From Companilactobacillus alimentarius DSM 20249 (GTDB lineage: Bacteria > Bacillota > Bacilli > Lactobacillales > Lactobacillaceae), in the NCBI RefSeq assembly GCF_002849895.1, contig NZ_CP018867.1:1054001-1118000 (forward strand): a stretch of DNA of 64,000 bases, in the 5' to 3' direction. How positions within the stretch are numbered: position 1 is the first letter of the stretch; each line of letters begins with the position of its first letter. The position numbers and the translations under genes are program-made. Of this stretch, positions 41,705-43,628 are shown one piece after another. The notes under the pieces are model-generated. The model made no database searches, was not told the DNA's origin, and saw nothing but the letters and a program-made list of their open reading frames with translations.

Positions 41705-42046
41705 AAAAGTATTTATATTGACATTTGAAAAGAATTTTTGCGTATTGATATTTCGGCAATTTACTTCTAAAAAAATTTATTTTTGATTTTAACCAATTCG
41801 TAAAAATTCAAAGTCGCAATTACTATTCTAATATCTCTTAAGATGGCTTAGCAATGATTTTTTCAATTTAAGTTCTAGCCCAAATTGCAAGTAGGATAAC
41901 GTAAATTTTTTCCTTGACTTGCTCAATTCATTGTCAGATAAACGATTGCTGGACAAATTTTTTTATAACGAAAAATTTCAGTTTTATGCCATTATTGTCT
42001 AAACAAGTCAGTTAATCCTTGTTAGAACAAGTGTTCTTCAAGATAA
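41705..42046. other. AT-rich non-coding stretch between nrdJ and the membrane-protein gene
   Basis: No open reading frame with a ribosome binding site and no RNA motif that I recognise is visible on either strand. A few TTGACA/TTGACT-like hexamers occur but without convincing -10 partners. It may be a decayed gene or an unrecognised regulatory RNA region. Confidence 0.4.
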
Positions 42047-42090
42047 ATAAAAACTAGACCAATTTTTAAAAATTAGTCTAGTTTTTATTT
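42047..42090 (-). terminator. Terminator after the interrupted membrane-protein gene
   Basis: AAAAACTAGACTAATTTTT and AAAATTGGTCTAGTTTTT form a stem of about 18 bp on the minus strand with T runs on both sides. Confidence 0.88.
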
Positions 42091-43523
42091 TTTATAAATT
42101 TTTTTCGTTACAACTCGATATAATCCGACGGCTGCTAAAATCGCAATTATCGGCAAAAATTCAATCCGATATCTTCCCTGCACTTCAATTAGAAGTTGCG
42201 CAGATACAAAAGCCAACAATGGTAATAAAAGTAAATACAAATTATTATTGAACTTCATTTTAAATAAGTCTATTGAGCCAATCCAAGAAAAGACTATCAA
42301 AATTATTGAACCTAGATAAGCCAAATAGTCGACTCGCTGGACCGTTTTAGGAGAGTGATTCTGACTATAACCAGTAAAATTAGTTGCCATTGTTCGAGAT
42401 GACCACAGAACTTGTATTTTATTTATAAACAAACTTATCCACTTTTTGTTCTTATCAAGATAATTTATTTCTTGATGTAAAGCTGCATATTCCTTTTTAG
42501 CCATAACTTTACGTGGCTTGCTGGCATCAATTAAACGGTCCAGATCAGGAGAATAAGTTCCATTCGATTGTTTATCAAGCCCGGTCACAAACTTCCATTC
42601 AGGGTCATAATTTGACAATCCGTATGAATTTACCGATGCCTTAATTCCCCACCCGGCTAATGAGAAGAGTACCAAATAAATTGCTAGAGCTAAGAGGATC
42701 CTTAGAGGCTTTTGATAGTGTACCCCCCCCCTCCGAGTTTAAACACTAAATAAACAATCGTAAAGGCGACAATACCAGCTATGATGACTGGTCCAATGGG
42801 GCGAATCAAACAACCAACTGTTAAGGTAATACCTGACAAAATATAACTCCAAAGTTTATCCTGCATAATCAAATAAAATGTAATTAAATAAAATAATGAT
42901 CCAAGATATTGATTACTTGCTTGACTATTCAAAGCAAACCAATCAAGATCAATCATTAAAAGTAAAACTGCTAATCGAGCAATTTTAATATTATTAAAAA
43001 TTTTTACGACCAACAAATATGTAAATAATAAAATAAGTGCTTGATAAATAACATTCAAAAATTGAATTGCAAAAATATGATAGCCAAAAATCTTTACAAC
43101 TGCTAAAACATAAACCATATATCCTGATTGATAGGCAAATCTGGAGAAATAATCGTTATCGGTTTGGTAAAGTTTATCACCATTAAAAAACCCAGGAACA
43201 CGCGTCCAAAAATTTCCGAAATCACTTATCTGAGTCTTTGGTACCACTAATACCCAAGCAGTGGCAGCAATTATGAAAATTAAGAGCATTCCAAAAAGAA
43301 TCGACCAATTAACTTTTTTACTTGAATCGTCGATTTTGACCAAGCCATAACCCACAGCTATTACTAAAACAAAAGCAATGATTAAAGTACTCCAATTAAA
43401 AGCGCGATTCACCATCGCATAATTCTCATAATAGAAAAGTGTCATTGTAATCAAAACTAAACTAGTGAAAATTGCTAAAACGCCTAATATGAATTTACTA
43501 ATACCATTTTGTATCTTTAAAAT
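42085..43523 (-). pseudogene. GT-C-like polytopic membrane protein (possible glycosyltransferase), interrupted at a G9 tract
   Basis: Two frames make one protein. The upstream frame (to 42702) has about eight membrane helices with a QISDFGNFWTRVPGF loop, resembling GT-C type glycosyltransferases such as the GT39/PMT group. The downstream frame (42085-42675 and upstream of it) continues with more helices (YLVLFSLAGWGIKA..., then IILIVFSWIGSIDLF and LLPLLAFVSAQLLIEVQGRYRIEFLPI). They are out of register at nine G (42723-42731); ten or seven G would join them into about 479 residues. The first conventional start is TTG at 43454, but the frame is open to 43542 with AAGGA near 43535, so translation may begin at a non-AUG codon (43529 or 43523). 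Could be a phase-variable gene, a true pseudogene or a sequencing error. Confidence 0.7.
42723..42731. repeat. Homopolymer of nine C (G on the coding strand)
   Basis: The longest G/C homopolymer noticed in this AT-rich window. It lies inside the membrane-protein gene exactly at the point where its two halves go out of frame. Such tracts are classic sites of slipped-strand mispairing. Confidence 0.95.
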
Positions 43524-43628
43524 AAATATCCCCGTCCTTAATGTTTATTCTTGTACCCTAACAATTCCTAATTTTAGCATTTCTAATTAGATTGGTTACT
43601 ATTTTATAAGACTTTTTCCATAAATAAG

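Follow-up and report, generated by a model that had tools for sequence, protein, structure and literature searches.

What does a run of nine G residues do inside a conserved membrane-protein gene of Companilactobacillus alimentarius DSM 20249: is it a switch, the mark of a lost gene or an error of assembly? The window analysed here is a stretch of 64,000 nucleotides (contig NZ_CP018867.1, positions 1,054,001 to 1,118,000; 34.3% G+C), and the gene in question, which specifies a membrane protein of the GT-C glycosyltransferase type, lies on its minus strand between approximately 43529 and 42085. An original prediction, made from the sequence alone, took the run to be a phase-variation site. We regard slipped-strand phase variation of an extracytoplasmic GT-C glycosyltransferase, sequenced in the OFF state, as the best reading of the locus, with confidence slightly better than even. 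Genomes and loci used for comparison carry our own G and L numbers.

The Tract and Its Reading Frames

Nine C residues are found on the plus strand at 42723-42731, exactly where a tract of nine had been predicted; on the minus strand they read as G9 in the context AAACTCGGA-G9-TACACTATC. Separate translation of both sides, with alignment to five relatives, established that two frames are involved. The upstream half (42732..43529, minus strand) comprises 266 codons from an isoleucine codon adjacent to a Shine-Dalgarno-like sequence to the tract, and is in the same frame as in the relatives. Past the tract the match to the relatives picks up immediately in a different frame, and this downstream half (42085..42722, minus strand) remains open until a TAA at 42085-42087. 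The upstream frame is closed by a TAA at 42702-42704 (minus strand), which is the stop first proposed, but it is 6 codons past the tract (9 from the first base of the tract) rather than 12. The length of the repeat sets the reading frame of the gene. The offset between the halves agrees with the earlier arithmetic, in which seven or ten G would restore a single frame of about 479 residues; counted from the isoleucine codon the product would have approximately 480.

The structure model of an intact relative (L032) has the GT-C transmembrane fold, in support of the predicted protein class, and by this model the tract encodes part of a loop which joins predicted helices 244-259 and 269-295 (L032 numbering). 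An S-D pair (D101) is shared without exception by the 22 aligned sequences; it is probably situated in the first outer loop and may have a catalytic role. Neither half has a Pfam match at E up to 1, nor does the intact relative at E up to 0.1, and NCBIfam gave sub-cut-off matches only. Neither library describes this family, an absence that is no argument against the fold. Similarly, a sequence search of the PDB returned no match at E up to 1, and ArnT, the GT-C aminoarabinose transferase (PDB 5f15, 5ezm), shares 11% identity with the protein. The best match has an open frame in 34 of 35 relatives. A plasmid origin was also considered, and was rejected in that no near (megablast) match of 42000-43600 was found among 72,556 plasmids.

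How Improbable Is the Tract?

The genome (2,401,923 bases; assembly completeness 99.88%) contains 53 G/C runs of exactly six, two of exactly seven, none of exactly eight and this one of nine. Extrapolation down the ladder, using a step ratio of 3/56 that includes the G9 tract itself, predicts 0.009 runs at or above nine, with an upper 95% limit of 0.14. Markov models for which the window, minus its masked tract, served as training sequence expect 1.3 (order 1), 0.16 (order 2), 0.62 (order 3) and 0.17 (order 4) runs of nine. The G/C six-mers, of which 61 are observed, are best predicted by orders 2 (53) and 4 (54), while orders 3 (103) and 1 (184) overstate them, the latter threefold. We thus have an improbably long repeat within a reading frame, the only G/C run of at least eight in its genome, where the better models expect 0.009-0.62. 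Tract length alone is unusual without being decisive, and chance alone is an unlikely rather than an impossible source.

The position of the tract within a conserved gene adds weight beyond its length. ORFs (open reading frames) of at least 110 codons from approximately 80 kb of G018 were compared with the window, retaining those whose best match had at least 55% identity and dropping weaker or absent matches. The GT-C gene is the sole split among the resulting 47 ORFs, over approximately 48 kb, in a comparison where a short shifted tail would go unnoticed; the stops in three other ORF alignments fall before start codons. The coincidence of the tract with the only split is a stronger argument than length. 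The same result bears on the idea that the assembly miscounts the tract and that the sequenced strain is actually in frame. Homopolymers are the usual site of error in long-read assemblies, which lends this some plausibility, but a single split in 47 ORFs indicates a stretch which is not rich in indels, the assembly is nearly complete, and an always-intact gene fits less well with the faster downstream change described below. We consider a miscount improbable, and even then so long a G run, sited in a conserved gene, would be liable to slippage.

Because G/C runs easily gain or lose bases in replication, this gene probably alternates between on and off states, which would vary the cell surface. 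In this scheme of slipped-strand phase variation the G9 tract would gain or lose bases by mispairing as the DNA is replicated. The broken frame of the sequenced state would yield only a truncated GT-C protein (OFF), and a tract length of another frame class would give the full polytopic glycosyltransferase (ON); the change is presumably reversible, so that a culture would hold a mixture of both. The ON enzyme would presumably move a sugar from an undecaprenyl-phosphate carrier to a surface polymer outside the membrane.

Tracts in Other Companilactobacillus Genomes

Across the genus, 19 of the 36 genomes contain between them 39 distinct G/C runs of at least eight. Apart from the run in the window itself, every one (38) was fetched and read, and classification was by eye, after the fact. 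On this by-eye classification six of the 39 are in gene bodies, and all six genes specify surface-glycan-type enzymes, which accords with the prediction that genes for surface polymers vary in this manner. The three gene-body runs of nine or more (window, L115 and L122) are all frame-off. L115 is a G11 in a membrane protein of G013, where a likely TTG start and seven codons precede the tract in a frame differing from that of the body. L122 is a G9 in an Acyl_transf_3 gene of G021, with a single Pfam domain extending across two frames and a short first piece below cut-off. The other three are G8 runs which are in frame: L132, in an Acyl_transf_3 gene of G029 adjoining a gene of the window's GT-C family; L127, in a YfhO-like gene whose Pfam score is below cut-off and which is similar to L115 (E 1e-27); and L136, in a Branch glycosyltransferase of a metagenome-assembled genome.

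The L115 gene (also L197) is a frame-off YfhO-like membrane protein, and the homolog in the window's own genome (L245, G000:C1:2054295-2055890) is crossed by one TAA. The Acyl_transf_3 gene which is split by G9 (L122 and L196) belongs to a family present in 11 of the 36 genomes at E 1e-30 or better.

Outside recognised gene bodies there are ten more runs of at least nine, among them L121, which adjoins N and is not classifiable. Eight runs of eight or nine G occupy, by eye, the Shine-Dalgarno position ahead of a start codon (L106, L112, L118, L119, L124, L128, L130 and L131), where tract length could tune translation. The remaining runs are intergenic, in repeats or near N. At L133 (G029:C1:2541839-2546846) two identical G8 are located approximately 1 kb apart within a repeat array which has a repeated peptide in translation, and which is perhaps CRISPR-like (clustered regularly interspaced short palindromic repeats).

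Selection on the Two Halves

The ratio of nonsynonymous to synonymous differences per site (pN/pS, Nei-Gojobori counts) was calculated between the window and four near relatives, and between the window and the more distant L035. For the near relatives it is 0.157-0.198 in the upstream half and 0.165-0.184 in the downstream half; for L035 the values are 0.279 and 0.323, respectively.

Several observations weigh against phase variation. When the four relatives are compared with each other, all six pairs show the downstream half as the more conserved (0.036-0.151 versus 0.104-0.214), which is not so in the window. In relative-rate counts with L035, L036 and L041, in that order, as outgroups, the changes in window:L050 are 9:15, 13:14 and 4:14 upstream and 12:6, 16:7 and 17:6 downstream. 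The corresponding Fisher p values are 0.12, 0.16 and 0.002 for the window versus L050, and 0.13, 0.03 and 0.06 versus L033, the single tests being not independent of each other and the synonymous divergence (dS) being near saturation; the control pair, L033 versus L050, gives 1.0, 0.44 and 0.59. In addition, none of the five aligned relatives has the tract, and no run of at least eight is present in the matched GT-C-family genes of the other 35 genomes, so that the tract is species- or strain-specific. The three in-frame G8 cases may represent ordinary Gly-Gly coding only.

Of the sites that five relatives share unchanged, the window departs from them at 3 of 140 in the upstream half and at 8 of 121 in the downstream half (p 0.12). 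Taken together the sequences suggest that both halves are constrained, and that the downstream half is mildly relaxed on this lineage. We had read the pN/pS values as indicating no downstream decay, an interpretation which the relative-rate counts weaken. Decay of this half, together with exactly nine G in all reads and strains, was an outcome which the original prediction named as fatal to it: the half still looks constrained, but it has changed mildly faster. Such relaxation is compatible with part-time silence and also with a permanent break that is not very old; the faster change therefore lowers our confidence in a switch and raises that in a fixed loss.

On the latter explanation the gene was permanently knocked out not long ago, and the G run is a by-product of indels in a loop tolerant of length changes. 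Besides the faster downstream change (single tests, p 0.002-0.16), this would account for the length difference from relatives falling at exactly this variable loop. The G003 copy carries an unrelated in-frame stop, an open paralog exists in the window genome (G000:C1:1240244-1240948), and among the 29 genomes that have a YfhO-like relative, stops cross it in 4, the window genome included. Against it, the downstream pN/pS is still low, the frame is broken at the genome's longest G run, and two other members of the genus have frame breaks at G9 and G11, in glycan-type enzymes too. We judge a fixed loss rather unlikely.

The relatives also bear on the notion that transcriptional slippage or ribosomal frameshifting at the tract yields some full-length protein from the frame-off gene. 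There is a precedent in Buchnera, where RNA-polymerase slippage at poly-A tracts is reported to rescue frameshifted genes (PMC2831843); the relatives, however, manage without any tract, and such rescue appears very improbable here.

For phase variation, then, stand the tract, the frame break, the GT-C fold, the open relatives and the seemingly constrained downstream half; the faster downstream change and the near relatives lacking a tract detract from it. The prediction of a phase-variation site is upheld in part.

Poly-G Tracts in the Lactobacillaceae

Runs of G10 or longer are present in 37 of 251 Lactobacillaceae genomes. Fifty family loci, which for some genomes represent part of the places, were read for context only. 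Many of the tracts are intergenic, in repeats, in phage-like genes or beside N stretches. By this reading at least 13 tracts in five genomes fall within roughly 100 residues of the N-terminal end in large surface-type ORFs (L173-L177, L178, L179, L190-L193, L206 and L208), and three of the four such ORFs scanned have a Pfam DUF285 or YSIRK signal. Five of these ORFs in G156 (L173-L177) and four in G079 (L190-L193) carry G10-G12 near the N-terminal end. A G13 is found near the C-terminal end of an Rgg-type regulator (L209, by Pfam) and a G15 in what by eye looks like the same type of regulator, also near the C-terminal end (L210); in both the frames differ across the tract.

Poly-G in surface genes is therefore not foreign to the Lactobacillaceae. 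We tentatively propose, as a possibility somewhat short of even, that unreported poly-G contingency loci for the decoration of outer-surface glycans operate in Companilactobacillus and, within surface genes of their own, in other Lactobacillaceae. GT-C and YfhO-like transferases and O-acyltransferases would have gained tracts independently in different species, and surface sugars would vary clonally, for example in escape from phages. If lactobacilli do switch such genes, a clonal starter or probiotic culture would be heterogeneous in phage adsorption and in its contact with the host, and any one assembly would wrongly present the genes as dead.

Start Region and Promoter

The window gene has no in-frame ATG, GTG or TTG between the upstream stop and codon 20 of the aligned protein; a TTG is present at codon 21. 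A Shine-Dalgarno-like sequence, AAGGACGGGG (43530..43539, minus strand), is followed directly by ATA TTT ATT. The ortholog group seems to employ a non-AUG start, with Shine-Dalgarno followed by ATT, ATC or ATA and often two isoleucine codons, a pattern recorded in the window (43523-43539) and at L032, L033, L035, L036, L037, L040, L041, L042, L050 and L058. The relatives resemble the window gene in their scarcity of conventional start codons, except that GTG or TTG is present upstream of the Shine-Dalgarno sequence in L032, L037 and L050, and that early candidate codons are present in L040 (TTG at 10) and L058 (TTG at 4 and ATG at 7). L038, L039 and the paralog group use ATG. A candidate extended -10 promoter element, TGCTAAAAT (43571..43579, minus strand), was spotted by eye in the alignment, TGNTARAAT being common to the window, L032, L033 and L050; a consensus promoter scan did not list it.

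Comparison with Known Systems

Poly-G switches are best known from mucosal pathogens. Searches of an open-licence library, at the level of listings and the openings of abstracts, turned up no poly-G phase-variable gene described for any Lactobacillus-type genus or for the Lactobacillaceae; the only switch met with was the promoter inversion of Lactiplantibacillus plantarum msa (PMC8493755). In PMC2246268 and PMC6607858 contingency loci are named in the references only. The msa inversion is likewise a switchable surface phenotype within the family, but its mechanism is DNA inversion rather than a homopolymer. Phase-variable glycans are treated in general in PMC12355684, where, in the part available, poly-G occurs just in a reference title.

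The window tract would add another case to an already known kind of switch, that of intragenic G tracts. Its counterpart in a Gram-positive commensal is found in Bifidobacterium breve UCC2003, whose sortase-pilus genes are described in PMC9187656 as having poly-G switches with slippage tracked by deep sequencing. Both are intragenic G tracts bearing on a surface structure, probably so in the window gene, and in B. breve replication slippage is the mechanism, but the genes are those of pili, the phylum is another, and slippage was deep-sequenced there whereas the window tract is known from one assembly. As told in that paper, gsmA of Mycoplasma agalactiae, which is needed for a beta-1,6-glucan, is switched by a G tract; in it, as in the window gene, a gene related to cell-surface polysaccharide has a G tract within its coding region, but gene and polymer differ. 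The Neisseria O-glycosylation transferase and acetylase genes, also as recounted there, contain intragenic G tracts. Neisseria is Gram-negative, unlike Companilactobacillus, but in both the tracts occur in glycosyltransferase and acyl/acetyltransferase genes, a likeness by enzyme type.
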